From contig CANIZT010000005.1 of NCBI GenBank assembly GCA_947471905.1, positions 1-39,754 of the forward strand: a stretch of 39,754 bases of DNA, written 5' to 3'. Below the pieces are notes generated by a model. The model worked only from the letters and a program-made list of their open reading frames with translations, ran no database searches and was not told the origin of the DNA. Below are positions 28,792-36,317 of the stretch, piece after piece (within the stretch, counting starts at the first letter, position 1; every line of letters starts with the position of its first letter). A program made the translations under genes and the position numbers. The DNA is from Verrucomicrobiaceae bacterium. Lineage in GTDB: Bacteria > Verrucomicrobiota > Verrucomicrobiia > Verrucomicrobiales > Verrucomicrobiaceae.

Positions 28792-30696
28792 ATGAAATGT
28801 CTTTCGCTCATCCTTTCGTCGTTCGTTATCCTGCATTCGCCATTGCTGGCGAAATCTAACGTCGTCCTCTTTCTCGCGGATGACATGGGCTGGATGGACA
28901 GCGGGGTTTATGGCTCGCAGTATTATGAGACGCCAAACATCGACCGATTCGCGAAACGCGCGATGCGCTTCACGAATGCGTATTCACAGCCGCTATGCTC
29001 GCCGACACGGGCGTCGTTGCTGACGGGACAATACTCGGCTCGGCACAAGATCACCAGCGCCACGGGTCATCAACCCCCACAGGCAGCGGGACATGTTTTT
29101 TTGCCGGAATCTGGTCCACCCAATGCGCCGATGCTCTTGCCGGAGAGCAAGAATTTCCTGGAGCCGTCGCAGATTACACTAGCAGAGACGTTGAAGGGCG
29201 CAGGTTATCGCACTGCGCACATTGGAAAGTGGCACCTTGGACTTACGGAGCCGCACTGGCCGGAGCAGCAGGGGTTTGATGTCGCGTTTCACTGCCATCC
29301 TGATCCGGGGCCACCGGGGAATTACTTTTCGCCGTATGGCGTAACGGCGGAAGGCAATCCGGGCGGCAAGAACAAGGTTGGCACCATCACGGACGGCCCG
29401 GCGGGCGAATACATCGTGGATCGACAGGCGGCGGAAGCAGTAAAGTTCATACAGAGCAACAAGGCCGGGCCGTTCTTCCTCAATCTGTGGTGCTACGGCG
29501 TTCATGGGCCATGGGAACACAAGGAAGAGTACACGAAGGCCTTCATGAACAAGAAAGATCCGAACGGCAGGCAAGGGAATCCGATCATGGCGTCGATGCT
29601 GAAGAGCTTGGATGAGTGTTTTGGACGCATCTTGGACGAACTGGACAAACAAGGCATTGCAGACAACACGATCATCATTTTCACCTCCGACAATGGTGGA
29701 AACGTGCACAGTAACATCACCGTGGAGGGCAAAAAATCCGCGAACGAGGATTGGATCAAGTGGGCCGGCACACAACCACCCACTCTGAATACGCCGCTGC
29801 GCGATGGCAAAGGCACGCTCTATGAAGGAGGCACTCGCGTGCCGATGATGTGGGCCTGGGCGGGCAAGATCGCCCCTGGAAGCACCAGTGATGCTGTCGT
29901 TGGTCCAATCGATGTCTATCCATCGGTTATCGACCTGCTTGGCATCACGAAACCGGAGCAACAATTGTTTGATGGCGTCAGCTACGCGAGCGTCTTGAAG
30001 GGTGATGGCGATTTGAAGCGCGCCGCTTACTTCAACTACCACCCACATGCTGGTGCCAACAAAGCGGGCGGTGTTTGGGTGCGCAGTGGTGACTTCAAAT
30101 TAATGCGCTGGTTTGGCAATCCGAGCACGGTGGAGCTTTATAACCTCAAGGTAGACATCAGCGAAGCCAATGACCTCGCGGTAAAGATGCCGGACAAAGT
30201 GAAGGAGCTCGAAATGCTGATCGACGGCTTCCTCAAAGACACTGGCGCGACATATCCGCGACCCAATCCATCTTACAATCCAGTCGTGGCCCAAACGAAG
30301 CCTGTGAGCACCGATCCGCTCGATGGCTGGAAGGAGCGTGGGTGCAAAGCGACCATCACCGATGGCATCCTCAGCCTGAAAGCTGCCGGCAAATCCGATG
30401 CCGCCTTCCTGGGTCACGGCATGGCTAAGATGAACGGTCCCGCATTGGTGAAGCTGCGGGTACGTAGCCAAACCGGTGGCGCAGGTAAGATTGACTCGCT
30501 GCCCAAGACTTCCGCCGACCTCAGCATCGTGCATTCAGCGCCGCTGGAGATCAAATCTGGCGATTGGCAGGAGTTGAAGATCGAAATCCAAGACAAAGGT
30601 CCGCTTGGCACGTTGCGCATTTATTTGCCGGATGCAGAGATCGATTTCATCGAAGTAGCGCCTGCGAATGGAAAAGCGCAACGCTGGAACTTCTGA
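28792..30696 (+). CDS. Secreted type I (formylglycine) sulfatase
   Basis: 634-residue sulfatase with signal peptide MKCLSLILSSFVILHSPLLA. Metal-binding start NVVLFLADDMGWMDSGVYGS (two Asp), then the maturation motif C69-S-P-T-R (LCSPTRASLLTGQYS), in which Cys69 becomes formylglycine. Later AHIGKWHLG gives the active-site Lys/His and IIFTSDNGG the second metal Asp-Asn. The core ends near residue 490; residues about 505-630 form an extra beta-sandwich domain (DGILSLKAAG, LRIYLPDAEIDFIEV) that could bind sugar. It removes sulfate esters from a polysaccharide. No sulfatase-maturating enzyme is in the window. It starts 40 bp after the GH10 gene. Confidence 0.92.
   Translation: MKCLSLILSSFVILHSPLLAKSNVVLFLADDMGWMDSGVYGSQYYETPNIDRFAKRAMRFTNAYSQPLCSPTRASLLTGQYSARHKITSATGHQPPQAAGHVFLPESGPPNAPMLLPESKNFLEPSQITLAETLKGAGYRTAHIGKWHLGLTEPHWPEQQGFDVAFHCHPDPGPPGNYFSPYGVTAEGNPGGKNKVGTITDGPAGEYIVDRQAAEAVKFIQSNKAGPFFLNLWCYGVHGPWEHKEEYTKAFMNKKDPNGRQGNPIMASMLKSLDECFGRILDELDKQGIADNTIIIFTSDNGGNVHSNITVEGKKSANEDWIKWAGTQPPTLNTPLRDGKGTLYEGGTRVPMMWAWAGKIAPGSTSDAVVGPIDVYPSVIDLLGITKPEQQLFDGVSYASVLKGDGDLKRAAYFNYHPHAGANKAGGVWVRSGDFKLMRWFGNPSTVELYNLKVDISEANDLAVKMPDKVKELEMLIDGFLKDTGATYPRPNPSYNPVVAQTKPVSTDPLDGWKERGCKATITDGILSLKAAGKSDAAFLGHGMAKMNGPALVKLRVRSQTGGAGKIDSLPKTSADLSIVHSAPLEIKSGDWQELKIEIQDKGPLGTLRIYLPDAEIDFIEVAPANGKAQRWNF
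28811..28845 (+). repeat. Heptamer array encoding the signal peptide of the sulfatase
   Basis: Five 7-bp units: TCCTTTC, GTCGTTC, GTTATCC, TGCATTC and GCCATTG, in the same order and phase as the arrays at 21117-21151 and 22269-22303. They encode SSFVILHSPLL. Confidence 0.6.
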
Positions 30697-30715
30697 GATC
30701 GTTATTTCACGACTT

Positions 30716-31012
30716 ATGATCCGTCACACTGTCGCCTTTCGTCTCAAGCATGCCCTAGGCTCCGCCGCTGAGCGTGATTTTCTTCAAGCCGCCCGCGAAC
30801 TCGCCAAGATCGCAGGCGTGCAGAAGTTTGAGTGTCTGCGCCAAACGAGCGCGAAGAATCCATTCACTTTCGGACTCTCGATGGAGTTCACCGATACGGC
30901 AGCTTACGCTTTTTACTGTGATCATCCCGATCACACTGCCTTCGTGCAACAGCGCTGGATTCCAGAGGTGGCCGAGTTCATGGAGATCGACTACGTGCCA
31001 CACACGTCCTAA
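30716..31012 (+). CDS. Dabb (stress-responsive alpha/beta-barrel) domain protein
   Basis: 98-residue ferredoxin-like dimeric barrel protein. The ATG at 30716 (MIRHTVAFRLKH) is the family start; the in-frame upstream codons lie inside the sulfatase gene. Family marks are the initial RHTVAFRLKH strand, the AGVQKFECLRQTS turn, the central FGLSMEFTDTAAYAFY strand and helix, and HPDHTAFVQQRWIPEV. Dabb proteins are small cytosolic proteins of uncertain function, sometimes enzymes on aldehydes or polyketides. Its stop faces the convergent large membrane-protein gene 7 bp away. Confidence 0.88.
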   Translation: MIRHTVAFRLKHALGSAAERDFLQAARELAKIAGVQKFECLRQTSAKNPFTFGLSMEFTDTAAYAFYCDHPDHTAFVQQRWIPEVAEFMEIDYVPHTS

Positions 31013-31019
31013 GTGATCA

Positions 31020-31574
31020 TCAAAGCCACTGCGCCAGCGCCTGCCAGAGACCACCGACCCCGAGGGCGCCGAGGAGCCAATAGAGAGCCTTCATCACGGG
31101 TTGTTCGGAGAAGGGGGCAAAGGCGCCGCGGCTGAGGTTGTTGATTTCTTTGAGGAGCCTGGTTGCTGCAGGTGTTTCCACCAATGCAGAGTAACGCTGT
31201 TGTACTTCATCCACCGCTTTACTGCGCAGGGTTTCAGCGGCGGCACGGACACGTGCGGCACTGAGGATGACGAGTACGACAACGAGCAGGTAGATGATGA
31301 TGAGCGCTGGCGGCCAGCTCCAAGCATCAAAGCGATTTACGCGTGCAAGGATGAGAAGTGCGAGCACATAAAAGGGAAAGAACGTGAGGCGGCCGATATC
31401 ACGCGTCCAGTCGGCGACCATCTGGAGGTCGATAAAGTCGCGCAGATTATCGGCGTGCAGTTTGGCGTGACGGTGCGTGCGAAGCATGGCCAGAGGCCAG
31501 TCACTTTTGCCACGGCTGAACCATTGGATGAAGACGCGATTGAGCCAGAGTGTGTCCACCACAAAGGCAGCCAA
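31020..31574 (-). CDS. C-terminal part of the large receptor-like membrane protein, separated by frameshift
   Basis: 184-residue frame opening at a TTG. It contains three hydrophobic segments (LTFFPFYVLALLILARV, PPALIIIYLLVVVLVILSA, ALYWLLGALGVGGLWQAL) and a cytosolic helix between them. It continues the protein coded at 31337-34261: the frame reads through LVSELTLAAFVVDTLWLN, which matches the expected next membrane segment, while the upstream frame turns into a low-hydrophobicity tail. Adding one base near 31575-31630 would fuse the two into about 1080 residues. No ribosome-binding site supports independent translation. Confidence 0.65.
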   Translation of the reverse strand: MAAFVVDTLWLNRVFIQWFSRGKSDWPLAMLRTHRHAKLHADNLRDFIDLQMVADWTRDIGRLTFFPFYVLALLILARVNRFDAWSWPPALIIIYLLVVVLVILSAARVRAAAETLRSKAVDEVQQRYSALVETPAATRLLKEINNLSRGAFAPFSEQPVMKALYWLLGALGVGGLWQALAQWL

Positions 31575-34261
31575 AGTAAGCTCGCTAACGAGGCACGATC
31601 GAGCCAGAGGTCGATCTGCCGCGCTTGGTCACCGCGCACCGGCGACAGCGTGGTGCCTAGCAGATGCAGCAGCAGGCTGGCCCCGACATAAAGCAGGCTG
31701 GCAACGACAATCGAGCGGCTGATGCGTGCGGTGATGGAGTTACTGAAGCGGTATTCTGACCATAGCTGCAGCGGGTGAACGACACTCTCCTCGCCCTGTC
31801 GCGTGGTGAGCACGCTGCTGGTTTTCCAGAATAGGAACATGCTTTTCAACCAGTCGAGCGGTGAGCGCCAGGGTGTGGGCTCGTTCGTTTTAACTTCATC
31901 TGCGAAGTAGTGTGCACGGAGTTCCCGTGTGCTGTCCGCCAGCATCGCGCAAGCCTTGAGGATAAGGTAGAGTGTGAGTAGTGCCGCCATTAACCGGAAG
32001 GCTTCCGCAGGCCAGGCGCTGATGCCGGAGCTGAAAAGTAACGGTTCGCCTCCGTTCCGCTGCACTGACCACCAAGACTCGATCCGCCAGAAAACCACCA
32101 CGATGATGATGATGATCATTACCGGTGATTTTACCACCTTGATGAGAATATGTTGCCAGTCGGCAGTCACGCTATTTTTCCCAAAGACAAGACCCAAGCC
32201 TGGCAGCCAGCTCACAATCATCCAACCAAGCCAGGCCAGTATCATGATGGTGCCGATCCACCATGCTTGATGTGAACGCACATCTAGCTGCCACCAAGCC
32301 GTGGATTCTGGTTGTGGATGTAGTTTTACCTCTGGTGCGGCCAGCGAGAGATCATGGGGTTCAAAGCGGCCTATCTCAAATAACCTCACAGCAGCGGTGC
32401 TGCGCAAGGATTCGAACTGCGCTGGCTCCAGCACTCCGGTGGCGGCCAGCGTGGCAGCATAGACGGATGTCTGGTAGCTATCGCGGAATGGGAGTTTGCC
32501 CATTTGATACGGATTAGCGAGCGTGATGCCATAGGGGGAGCCGACAATGAGATTGCGTGTGGTCCGTAGTTCGTCGCGCTGCCAAAGCCAGGCATCGAGA
32601 TTATTGGTGAAAAACTGTGTGCGTGGAAGGCGCGGACGCAGAGCGCGTAGGATCCACAGCTTGTCATAGACATCACCACCGAGCACGCCAACGGCCACCA
32701 GACCGGCACCCCCACGGCGTGTGAGGCTTTCATCGAGTTCCTCGAGCTGCGCGGCGAGACGGCGCAGAGCATCCGCCTGACTCACACCACTGGGCATTTC
32801 ATCGGGCGCGTATTTAGCGTCGCTACCTTTGGCTGCGGAAGCTGCTTTTTCCGCAGCGCCAGAGGCCGTGTCGCTAGTGTAACGACCATCAAGGCCGCGC
32901 GGGTAATTAATCCAGTGCCAACGGAACTGAGGACGATTGAAATCACCTCTCATATCTTGGCCATTCATCGCTTCCATGAAGGTAAGCGGGAGCTCGCGGC
33001 CATAGGATGTATCGAATTCGGAGATGATGGCGACGTTGCCGCAGTGGATATCCGTGCTGGACGTTTTTCGTAAGGTGAGGCCGCGACGTTCCAATTCATC
33101 CACCAAGGCGTCCGCCACATGATCATCGGTGGTGAGGCTGCGGATGAAGGGCGCTGCATGTGTGCCCGCAGGATCGAGCACGCCTGCCATTAGGTCATCG
33201 ACGCGCTGCTCCGCAGCCTGCGCACGCAGGGCATCATCAGCGATTTGAGGCAGTCCGGCTCCTGACAGTCGTAGCAGCGCACGTGCTGAGGCCGTGCCCC
33301 ACGGTGAAACCATGCGCAACGGCCCCGCCCACTGATCCTCACGCCACTCCGGCTTTTCTGCAGCCTCGCCAATAAAAGCAGCGAGATTGTCGGTCGAATG
33401 CGGCCCCAGTAGCAGGATTTCAATACGTTCCGCATCCAGTTCCGGTGTTTCTTCAGAACCTGCACGACGCGGATATCCATGCAGCAGGCGGTGCAACGTC
33501 GTGCGGATTTGGGAAAGCGGTTTGCCGCCGAAGGCATCGCCCCGCAGCCACAGAATGCCGACGGATTCATAGCCGGGGTTATTTACTGACGGAATGCGGT
33601 TCGAAGATTTGAACCATTCAAATGCCACATCGAGTGAAGAAATCGGCCCATTAACCGTTGCAGGTGCGGAAGCCTGTGTGTCAGCCGCGTCTGTGGCAGA
33701 AATTGTCGACGATGGCAGTTCTTTTTTGAACAATGGCAACGGCCAAGGGGAAAGGCGGCAACATTCGAGACTACCGCCATGTTCGGGCACATAACCCGAG
33801 GAAGTCAGGCCTGCCGTAACCGCCCCTCGTGCACGGCTGCGCTGTTCGATCGAGGCCATGTCCGTGCCTGGACGTAGTAGCACAGGCATAAGCAGCACAT
33901 GGGAAGGCTTTGCACGGTGCTGCCGCACATCCCGTTCAGCCACGAGTTTCAAGCGCTCGCGTAGTTCGAGGAAAAACCCCCACGGCGTGTGAACTTCGAC
34001 ATCGGTGGCGGGATTGAATTCCTTCTTGTCTGGCGGAATGAACTTCGCTCTTGCTAGGGCGCGTAACGGATCTTCGCCGGGAGCAGCGTCGAATTTATGA
34101 GTGTCTCCTACTACTACCGAAGGCGCGGCAGGCTCCACTGGGCGGCGCGGCACGAGCGGTTCGTAATTCAGCAGCACCGCTCCCGCCAAGGCTGTTAGAA
34201 CCGCTAGGGCACCAGGCAGCGGGATCGAGGACAGGATGGTTTTCTTCGCGTCGTCAGGCAT
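31337..34261 (-). CDS. Large membrane protein with receptor-like exported domain, frameshifted
   Basis: 974 residues in this frame from the ATG at 34261; the last 75 or so are out of frame. One N-terminal membrane segment (LPGALAVLTALAGAVLLNY) is followed by about 580 exported residues and then at least five membrane segments (WWIGTIMILAWLGWMIVSW, VMIIIIIVVVFWRI, LMAALLTLYLILKACAML and others). The exported part carries ISEFDTSYGRELP, NYPRGLDGRY, VLGGDVYDKLWILRALRP, FFTNNLDAWL, TRNLIVGSPYG and LPFRDSYQTS. I recall these motifs from a widespread family of large uncharacterised membrane proteins with a periplasmic-binding/ANF-receptor-like fold. Function unknown; sensing of a ligand is inferred. 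Confidence 0.65.
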   Translation of the reverse strand: MPDDAKKTILSSIPLPGALAVLTALAGAVLLNYEPLVPRRPVEPAAPSVVVGDTHKFDAAPGEDPLRALARAKFIPPDKKEFNPATDVEVHTPWGFFLELRERLKLVAERDVRQHRAKPSHVLLMPVLLRPGTDMASIEQRSRARGAVTAGLTSSGYVPEHGGSLECCRLSPWPLPLFKKELPSSTISATDAADTQASAPATVNGPISSLDVAFEWFKSSNRIPSVNNPGYESVGILWLRGDAFGGKPLSQIRTTLHRLLHGYPRRAGSEETPELDAERIEILLLGPHSTDNLAAFIGEAAEKPEWREDQWAGPLRMVSPWGTASARALLRLSGAGLPQIADDALRAQAAEQRVDDLMAGVLDPAGTHAAPFIRSLTTDDHVADALVDELERRGLTLRKTSSTDIHCGNVAIISEFDTSYGRELPLTFMEAMNGQDMRGDFNRPQFRWHWINYPRGLDGRYTSDTASGAAEKAASAAKGSDAKYAPDEMPSGVSQADALRRLAAQLEELDESLTRRGGAGLVAVGVLGGDVYDKLWILRALRPRLPRTQFFTNNLDAWLWQRDELRTTRNLIVGSPYGITLANPYQMGKLPFRDSYQTSVYAATLAATGVLEPAQFESLRSTAAVRLFEIGRFEPHDLSLAAPEVKLHPQPESTAWWQLDVRSHQAWWIGTIMILAWLGWMIVSWLPGLGLVFGKNSVTADWQHILIKVVKSPVMIIIIIVVVFWRIESWWSVQRNGGEPLLFSSGISAWPAEAFRLMAALLTLYLILKACAMLADSTRELRAHYFADEVKTNEPTPWRSPLDWLKSMFLFWKTSSVLTTRQGEESVVHPLQLWSEYRFSNSITARISRSIVVASLLYVGASLLLHLLGTTLSPVRGDQARQIDLWLDRASLASLLWLPLWWTHSGSIASSSNGSAVAKVTGLWPCFARTVTPNCTPIICATLSTSRWSPTGRVISAASRSFPFMCSHFSSLHA

Positions 34262-34310
34262 GGATGGCGGATGGGTTGTTGTTAACGGAACCGCAGTCAA
34301 ACGCGAGCAT

Positions 34311-34346
34311 AAAAACGCCGCGCCTGGTTTTATCCGGGCGCGGCGT
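34311..34346 (-). terminator. Rho-independent terminator of the SWIB gene
   Basis: A 10-bp GC-rich perfect stem (34337-34346 with 34315-34324, 12-nt loop) is followed on the minus strand by a run of five T (34315-34311). It begins 20 bp after the SWIB stop codon and lies before the large membrane-protein gene, separating the two transcription units. Confidence 0.85.
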
Positions 34347-34365: not shown

Positions 34366-34713
34366 TTAGGCACCGATGTGCTTGGAGACCAGCTTGGTCA
34401 TCTCAAACATTGATACTTGCTTCTTTCCACCGAACACGGCCTTCAATGCGTCATCGGCATTGATGTTGCGCTTGTTCTTGGCGTCCTGGAGACCGTTCTT
34501 CTTGATGTAGTCCCAGAGCTTCTTCGTGATCTGGCCACGAGGAGCTGGTTTGTTGCCGACGACGACTCCGAGAATCGCGTCAGGCTGCACCGGCTTCATC
34601 AGGGCTGGATTGGGCTTACGTTTGGCTGCGGGCTTCTTGGCAGCTTTTTTGGCAGCTTTTTTGGCTGCTGGTTTGGCTGCTGGTTTGGATTTGGTTGCTG
34701 CTTTCTTGGCCAT
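34366..34713 (-). CDS. SWIB/MDM2-domain protein with histone H1-like Lys/Ala-rich tail
   Basis: 115-residue protein. Residues 1-36 are a basic tail of Ala-Lys-Pro repeats (AKKAATKSKPAAK and so on), similar to bacterial histone H1-like Hc tails. Residues about 38-115 are a SWIB domain: ALMKPVQPDAILGVVVG, RGQITKKLWDYIKKNGLQD, KRNINADDALKAVFGG and MFEMTKLVSKHI. Bacterial SWIB proteins are known in Chlamydiae and other PVC bacteria and are thought to be DNA or chromatin associated. The tail is encoded by 12-bp tandem repeats. The gene has its own promoter and terminator, suggesting strong independent expression. Confidence 0.92.
   Translation of the reverse strand: MAKKAATKSKPAAKPAAKKAAKKAAKKPAAKRKPNPALMKPVQPDAILGVVVGNKPAPRGQITKKLWDYIKKNGLQDAKNKRNINADDALKAVFGGKKQVSMFEMTKLVSKHIGA
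34639..34686 (-). repeat. Four 12-bp tandem repeats inside the SWIB tail
   Basis: Plus-strand units GGCAGCTTTTTT (34639-34650, 34651-34662) and GGCTGCTGGTTT (34663-34674, 34675-34686) are each repeated twice. Each unit encodes four residues (Lys-Lys-Ala-Ala or Lys-Pro-Ala-Ala), so copy-number changes would keep the frame and only change tail length. Confidence 0.8.
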
Positions 34714-35015: not shown

Positions 35016-36317
35016 ATGTCCGAAGACGCTGCTCCCCATGATCAACCATCGTTCGATGTTCCCAGCATCGAAGAGATGTCCGCCTACTTGCCGCAATTCA
35101 AGTTTGAAAAACTAGCTGCCTGCGGTGGTATGGGTGCAGTGTATAAAGCCTATCAAGACAGCTTGGAGCGTCGTGTGGCGGTGAAAATATTACCGCCTAA
35201 GTTTAGTGCGGAACAAGGATTCTCCGACCGTTTCAAAGTCGAGGCGCGAGCGATGGCGAAGCTCAATCACACCAATATTGTGGGCGTGTACGATTTTGGC
35301 ATCACGCCAGGCGGTCATCTATATCTTGTCATGGAATGGATCGAGGGACGCTCGCTGCACGATCTCATCCACAAAACCAACCTGCCTCTGCGCAAGGCAA
35401 CGAACTTAGCCATCCAACTCTGCGAGGCACTCAGCTTTGCACATGAGCATGGTATTATTCATCGCGATATCAAGCCGGGCAACATCATGGTTAATGATGC
35501 CGACCATGTGAAGGTGGCGGACTTCGGCTTGGCCCGCCCCACGAATGAAGCGGAGGAGGAGAATCCGATGGGAACACCGGACTATGCCGCCCCGGAGATT
35601 TGCGGTGGCAACGTGGTGGACCATCGGGTGGACATTTTTGCTGTCGGGGTGGTGCTCTATGAGATGTTGACCGGTCGCGTGCCAGAGACGCCTCGCCGCC
35701 CGGTCACGTTGTATGCCAAGGTATCGTCGCGCTGGGACGAAATCATCGCCAAGGCCATCCATCCCGATCCTAACAAGCGGTATCAGGATGCAGGCGAGTT
35801 CCGTGCTTATATTAATGCGGCGATGAAGCAAGAATCTGGCGTCCCGCTGCCGGATTCGGTCGATCAACGACCAAAGGGAGCGCCGCAGAAGAAAGCAGCG
35901 GCAATGACACAACAGCAGCAAATGGTGCTGACGTTTGTTTTTGTGGGAGTGGTGCTGGTGGCTTTGGCGGCGATGATTTTTTGGCCCACCTCCAGAAAAG
36001 GCTCATCTTCTTCTGCGAACACGAGCAATACAGAAGCCACACCAGAGGAGGTGAGTGCAGTGATTGACAAGCTAGAGCAGAATGATGCGGAATTGGCTCG
36101 GCTGATGAACTCATTTACGCAGGACTGGGAGACCAGTGGTGCGAGCAAGTCTCCAGCCATCGCTGAAAAACTTCGCTCGTCTCTGCTCGCAGCGACGAAG
36201 GCAAAAGCGAAGGATCGTGCGGAAGCGGCACGACGGGCGGAGATTGTGGCTGCTGCGCTGACGAAGTTGAGTGGTGCTCCTTCATTGAAGGCACTCAAAG
36301 CAGCGGCAGCGAATTAA
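35016..36317 (+). CDS. Hanks-type serine/threonine protein kinase, membrane-anchored
   Basis: 433-residue receptor-like kinase. The kinase domain spans about residues 28-285: glycine loop ACGGMGAVYKAY (first Gly of GxGxxG replaced by Ala), catalytic Lys57 in VAVKIL, HRDIKPGNIMV, VADFGLA, and GTPDYAAPE. All residues needed for phosphotransfer are present. A single membrane segment follows (MVLTFVFVGVVLVALAAMIF, about 305-325), then a 100-residue exported tail rich in Ala/Lys/Glu with helical heptads, lacking PASTA or other known sensor repeats. It phosphorylates unknown cytosolic targets. No phosphatase gene is adjacent. It is transcribed away from the SWIB gene. Confidence 0.93.
   Translation: MSEDAAPHDQPSFDVPSIEEMSAYLPQFKFEKLAACGGMGAVYKAYQDSLERRVAVKILPPKFSAEQGFSDRFKVEARAMAKLNHTNIVGVYDFGITPGGHLYLVMEWIEGRSLHDLIHKTNLPLRKATNLAIQLCEALSFAHEHGIIHRDIKPGNIMVNDADHVKVADFGLARPTNEAEEENPMGTPDYAAPEICGGNVVDHRVDIFAVGVVLYEMLTGRVPETPRRPVTLYAKVSSRWDEIIAKAIHPDPNKRYQDAGEFRAYINAAMKQESGVPLPDSVDQRPKGAPQKKAAAMTQQQQMVLTFVFVGVVLVALAAMIFWPTSRKGSSSSANTSNTEATPEEVSAVIDKLEQNDAELARLMNSFTQDWETSGASKSPAIAEKLRSSLLAATKAKAKDRAEAARRAEIVAAALTKLSGAPSLKALKAAAAN

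Follow-up and report, generated by a model that had tools for sequence, protein, structure and literature searches.

A Predicted Venus-Flytrap Domain Built Into a Polytopic Membrane Protein of Verrucomicrobia

Introduction

Type I periplasmic-binding folds are known as soluble partners of ABC transporters, and they also form the sensor parts in kinases and the ectodomains in animal neurotransmitter receptors. A gene from a freshwater Verrucomicrobia bacterium of the Prosthecobacter group raises the question of what such a fold may do when it is part of a polytopic membrane protein. The gene is located in a stretch of DNA of 39,754 nucleotides, referred to here as the window. A previous sequence-only reading had interpreted its product as a possible sensor in which a periplasmic-binding-like exported domain is joined to a multi-span membrane domain. 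In another system, a periplasmic-binding domain carried on transmembrane helices has been found merely as an occasional variable part (PMC7159879).

Results

Reading Frame and Selective Constraint

The following features define the gene and its reading frame:

31020..34261, minus strand: gene for a type I periplasmic-binding protein (PBP)/nine-transmembrane-helix (9-TM) membrane protein of ~1,080 aa, with ATG at 34261 and stop at 31020; frame broken once near 31571
31568..31574, minus strand: 4-base deletion that breaks the PBP/9-TM frame, identified by comparison with the intact relative of genome G032 (94% DNA identity)

The minus-strand translation contained all five motifs on which the sequence-only reading was based: EFDTSYGR (33019-32996), PRGLDG, GGDVYDKLWILRALRP, TRNLIVGSPYG, and PFRDSYQTS (32491-32465). 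The extent proposed for this large gene was also correct, although it is not a single open frame. The interval comprises two ORFs, one at 31337-34300 (987 aa) that departs from the conserved frame near 31571, and another at 31020-31574 (184 aa) that carries the remainder. This split is due to the four bases missing with respect to G032, and a short repeat lies beside the deletion at ~31571. In five relatives from the same genus, the protein is encoded in single unbroken frames of 1,060-1,102 aa.

Comparison with the G032 relative revealed 34/13/140 substitutions at codon positions 1/2/3, a coding signal far beyond chance, with dN 0.018 and dS 0.203 overall. The portion past the frame break was equally constrained (dN 0.013, dS 0.286). 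The codon-position bias and the dN and dS values indicated that the gene is under purifying selection along its whole length. Since this constraint persists 3' of the break and the relatives are intact, the break would have arisen either very recently by mutation or during assembly. The relative in genome G596 (L073:8182-11252) also consists of two ORFs, the join lying at one base position, which points to a frameshift or an assembly error.

The Exported Domain Adopts a Predicted Type I Binding Fold

The protein was divided into the following parts:

34169..34225, minus strand: N-terminal transmembrane helix (signal anchor), residues 13-31, by hydropathy over the family
32279..34108, minus strand: exported (periplasmic) domain, residues 52-661, by AlphaFold2, VIA-align and Foldseek
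~33907 to 32327, minus strand: part of the exported domain that superposes on type I PBPs, by VIA-align with 3td9 (model residues 71-593)
32465..33019, minus strand: second lobe, containing the five motifs and being the most conserved part of the family
31020..32260, minus strand: membrane domain of eight predicted helices, by hydropathy and conservation; no Pfam family

An AlphaFold2 model of the window's own residues 52-661, built with 26 relatives, reached a pLDDT of 82.5 and a pTM of 0.85, and it showed two alpha/beta lobes of type I topology. VIA-align superposed this model on Thermotoga LivK (TM1135, 3td9) with Z 18.9 and rmsd 3.8 over 304 residues, and comparable values were obtained for ~50 type I binding proteins, including leucine/isoleucine/valine and amide binding proteins. 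Foldseek yielded 33 matches at E <= 0.001, all of them type I binding folds by title; the best PDB matches, with E 1e-8 to 1e-7, were led by the mGluR1 ectodomain and included ABC-type binding proteins for amino acids and aromatic acids. The same fold emerged independently from a full-length model of a relative, a model of lower quality. On the basis of these models, the exported domain can be assigned confidently to the type I periplasmic-binding (Venus-flytrap) fold, in agreement with the sequence-only reading. The outcome that would have contradicted that reading, an unrelated enzyme fold, was not obtained, and an enzyme ectodomain was discarded as a candidate, all strong structural matches in Foldseek and VIA-align being binding folds.

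At the sequence level, the Pfam profiles Peripla_BP_6 and ANF_receptor did not match the protein. Profile-profile alignment by hhalign to 21 diverse Peripla_BP_6 proteins was weak (E 0.006, probability 6%), with the register correct, while alignment to LivJ/LivK alone, a two-sequence profile, was uninformative. Searching the PDB sequences with the family profiles gave chance-level matches only. In view of the missing Pfam match and the weak profile-profile alignment, we claim a shared fold and not membership of PF13458. Conservation was concentrated in the second lobe, with 84 of 221 columns above 2.5 bits versus 34 of 231 in the first, and the invariant polar motifs are also in the second lobe. 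Some distant relatives (L037:7800-11918, L038:6414-10418, and L040:7468-11571) carry a helical, coiled-coil-like insertion of ~250-300 residues in the exported domain; most of it is missing from the L039 relative.

The Membrane Domain Shows Conserved Periplasmic Loops

Hydropathy over the family predicted one N-terminal helix, followed by the exported domain and then by eight C-terminal helices, with a K+R content of 13-17% in the predicted inside loops versus 6-11% in the outside loops. Conserved motifs were found in the periplasmic loops of the membrane domain (GEP..GIS.WP, PxRG, and R..FDxWxWP), and these loops were more conserved than the cytoplasmic ones (2.12 versus 1.52 bits, p about 1e-7). 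Hydropathy and loop conservation together upheld the multi-span membrane domain of the sequence-only reading. Conserved outer loops would be expected of a membrane domain whose outer face is acted on, or supplied, by the binding domain. In the full-length model of the relative, the membrane domain had low pLDDT (about 40-65). No cytoplasmic output domain was recognized in the protein by Pfam and NCBIfam, or by comparing 15 relatives with Pfam.

We lean towards interpreting this architecture as an inner-membrane, ligand-gated receptor for a small molecule. Its main rival, which we consider rather unlikely, is a transporter with a tethered binding protein, in which the exported domain would capture a solute and pass it to an eight-helix secondary transporter or channel. 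ABC solute-binding proteins are the nearest solved folds of the exported domain, the conserved periplasmic loops could serve as a docking or entry site, and eight helices would be sufficient for a permease. However, no ABC ATPase or permease genes are present in the neighborhood of the gene, and the membrane domain had no Pfam transporter match and no similarity to LivH or LivM in hhalign (E 0.74 and 0.35 with single sequences, which makes this a weak test). Moreover, it would be unusual for a binding protein to be joined to its permease and, in addition, to an N-terminal anchor.

The Gene Is an Optional Insert Between Two Flanking Genes

The insertion site is delimited by the following features:

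30668..31012, plus strand: flanking gene for a Dabb-domain protein at one edge of the site, convergent, with its stop 7 bases from the PBP/9-TM stop
34315..34346, minus strand: GC-rich hairpin and T run between the SWIB and PBP/9-TM genes, a probable terminator (-24.8 kcal/mol, z -3.0)
34366..34713, minus strand: flanking gene for a SWIB-domain protein at the other edge of the site

The hairpin was not listed by a scan for the consensus terminator pattern. From the hairpin and T run, the PBP/9-TM gene is probably transcribed alone, apart from the SWIB gene, and an operon with the latter was rejected in view of the same strong element. The gene at 35016-36317, divergent from the SWIB gene, encodes a serine/threonine protein kinase bearing a transmembrane segment at its C-terminus.

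The gene lies between the SWIB and convergent Dabb genes in the window and in three other genomes of the genus (G032, G004, and G799), and in a fourth (G012), where the contig ends at this locus, it adjoins SWIB. Ten further members of the genus have SWIB and Dabb adjacent, 75 to ~900 bases apart, without the PBP/9-TM gene, and no decayed copies of it were found at these empty sites. According to a tree of the flanking sulfatase, this pattern requires at least two gains or losses, and the supported branches are compatible with a single origin. Based on the insertion pattern and on the separating hairpin, the PBP/9-TM gene is an accessory single gene, outside any conserved operon in the genus. 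Its neighbors in the window (SWIB, kinase, Dabb, and sulfatase genes) are not the ATPase and permease genes of Liv-type ABC import, and no recognizable partner was found among the genes of the window. The conserved system with recurrent partners anticipated from the sequence alone was not supported by the neighborhood: the neighbors are unrelated and the gene is optional.

Distribution of the Family

The protein did not match any model in Pfam, NCBIfam or PADLOC, a Pfam scan of 15 divergent relatives found no significant family in common, and literature searches found no described family matching it, consistent with the conserved but uncharacterized family previously suggested. Genome surveys covered the phylum of the window, and plasmid and viral-contig searches extended beyond it. 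Relatives were detected in 6 of the 35 genus genomes surveyed, in 8 of 387 phylum-wide, in 11 of 384 from the class, and in 4 of 240 from a different class within the same phylum, a patchy distribution amounting to 2-3% of phylum genomes. The close relatives belonged to Prosthecobacter and to metagenome genomes of other Verrucomicrobiaceae, and a distant one came from Opitutales. Outside the phylum, plasmid tblastn detected a single stretch of 83 codons with 34% identity in a Methylosinus plasmid, where no full-length gene is annotated. Apart from this stretch, the family was found only in the window's phylum, which gives no support to the conservation across phyla that had been presumed. A phage or plasmid gene was rejected, as two viral-contig scans contained no relative and the plasmid search gave only the Methylosinus match.

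Distant Relatives Lie Near LCAT, CHAT and Caspase Genes

No partner gene was conserved in most genomes examined. In G084 and G431 (genus g88, family f34), the genes upstream of the PBP/9-TM gene encode first a putative lipoprotein and then, two genes away, an LCAT-like lipase. G316 has an LCAT-CHAT fusion gene 67 bases downstream, followed by a convergent caspase gene. At most one LCAT protein above the cut-off was present per genome examined, and in these three genomes the sole one lies 1-2 genes from the PBP/9-TM gene. Given this scarcity, chance is an unlikely explanation for LCAT lying no more than two genes away in two unrelated lineages; we estimate its probability at roughly 0.001 per lineage for a 4,000-gene genome.

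Two loci from one genus of another class (L038:4231-10418 and L039:5319-10631) show the LCAT-like lipase, the putative lipoprotein (no Pfam match), and the receptor-like protein as a cluster. At L041:1144-10179, a distant relative precedes an LCAT-CHAT fusion gene and a convergent gene for a caspase with an N-terminal half that is alpha/beta hydrolase-like by eye; from its gene content, this looks like a conflict or cell-death locus. LCAT-CHAT proteins in other genomes adjoin SIR2 and predicted STAND-like genes, which are the usual company of conflict systems. For example, in L157:7145-14304 an LCAT-CHAT fusion is followed in succession by what are, by eye, a SIR2-like protein and a STAND-like NTPase, and in the Rhizobium leguminosarum plasmid NZ_CP071627 LCAT-CHAT is followed by SIR2. 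The Opitutales relative (L024:4513-7839) adjoins a YhcG-type nuclease (PADLOC PDC-S02) and a STAND-like NTPase. PADLOC matched some of these distant-relative neighbors to caspase or PDC-S02, the PBP/9-TM family itself being unmatched. Neither LCAT nor CHAT was found in the window's genome (78% complete).

These neighborhoods raise the alternative, in our judgement improbable, that the PBP/9-TM protein is the sensor arm in a system for phage defence or programmed death, with LCAT-like lipases and CHAT or caspase proteases as effectors. It would account for the G316 cluster, for LCAT two genes upstream in G084 and G431, for the SIR2 and predicted STAND genes beside LCAT-CHAT elsewhere, for the nuclease near the Opitutales relative, and for the patchy presence of the gene at a precise site. 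However, the LCAT/CHAT pattern occurs in only two independent lineages, most relatives have unrelated neighbors, neither LCAT nor CHAT was found in the window's genome (78% complete), the protein itself has no PADLOC match, and a periplasmic binding domain would be an unusual phage sensor. A link to defence-type genes, which the sequence-only reading had suggested looking for, occurs only in the two distant lineages. A structural role is more improbable still; here the binding fold, no longer able to bind a ligand, would serve as a scaffold, as in LpoA, and the protein would aid envelope assembly. Foldseek did match LpoA (5vbg, E 2.4e-5) and Verrucomicrobia envelopes are unusual, but the invariant charged residues cluster in the lobe 2 motifs and absence from most congeners fits a core envelope role poorly.

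Discussion

The confidently modeled fold, the predicted topology, the conservation pattern, the purifying selection, and the optional presence at one chromosomal site were all obtained by computation, and the models describe what appears to be a polytopic protein of no known membrane family that incorporates a Venus-flytrap sensor domain. A sensor role is plausible, and the signaling or stress role proposed from the sequence alone stays a hypothesis.

The protein resembles LivK TM1135 (3td9) and AmiC (1pea) in its two-lobed fold (~300 residues, Z 17-19), and the family has, as type I PBPs do, a yGR-type motif where lobe 2 begins, aligned in the expected register. It differs from these proteins in being ~250 residues longer and anchored to the membrane at both ends, in the lack of a Pfam match and of ABC transporter genes nearby, and in an identity of about 8-16% in the alignments. 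A second resemblance is to class C GPCRs (mGluR, calcium-sensing, and sweet-taste receptors), in which a Venus-flytrap ectodomain is also followed by a polytopic membrane domain; whole class C receptors are included among the best Foldseek matches of the PBP/9-TM models. In contrast to those receptors, the protein has an N-terminal anchor helix and, by hydropathy only, eight rather than seven C-terminal helices, and it has no recognized cysteine-rich domain. The membrane parts give no sign of kinship, so that this is a likeness of plan only. Unlike sensor kinases and chemoreceptors with a periplasmic sensor, it has no recognizable cytoplasmic output domain. The LCAT-CHAT fusions and caspase-hydrolases of bacterial conflict loci are genomic neighbors of the G316, G084, and G431 relatives, not part of the PBP/9-TM protein, and neither LCAT nor CHAT was found in the window's genome.

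For the ligand-gated receptor that we favor, we infer the following sequence of events. The N-terminal helix and the eight-helix C-terminal domain would hold the type I ligand-binding domain in the periplasm, where binding of a small molecule, probably amino-acid- or organic-acid-like, would close its two lobes. Lobe closure would be relayed to the conserved periplasm-facing loops, and the membrane domain would transmit it by changing its cytoplasmic face or the state of a pore. A partner may provide the output: in two distant lineages this may be the LCAT-like lipase, and in one of them the LCAT-CHAT fusion next to the caspase. A bolder version, to which we give little credence, is a receptor plan like that of class C GPCRs, in which a Venus-flytrap sensor and a polytopic transducer of new fold would allow an extracellular small molecule to activate lipase, CHAT or caspase effectors.

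If the receptor interpretation is true, a prokaryotic type I fold in a polytopic protein without ABC genes, a kinase or a recognized membrane fold would represent a new route of transmembrane small-molecule signaling. Since the gene is occasionally paired with LCAT, CHAT, and caspase genes, its possible role in controlled cell damage can be tested directly.
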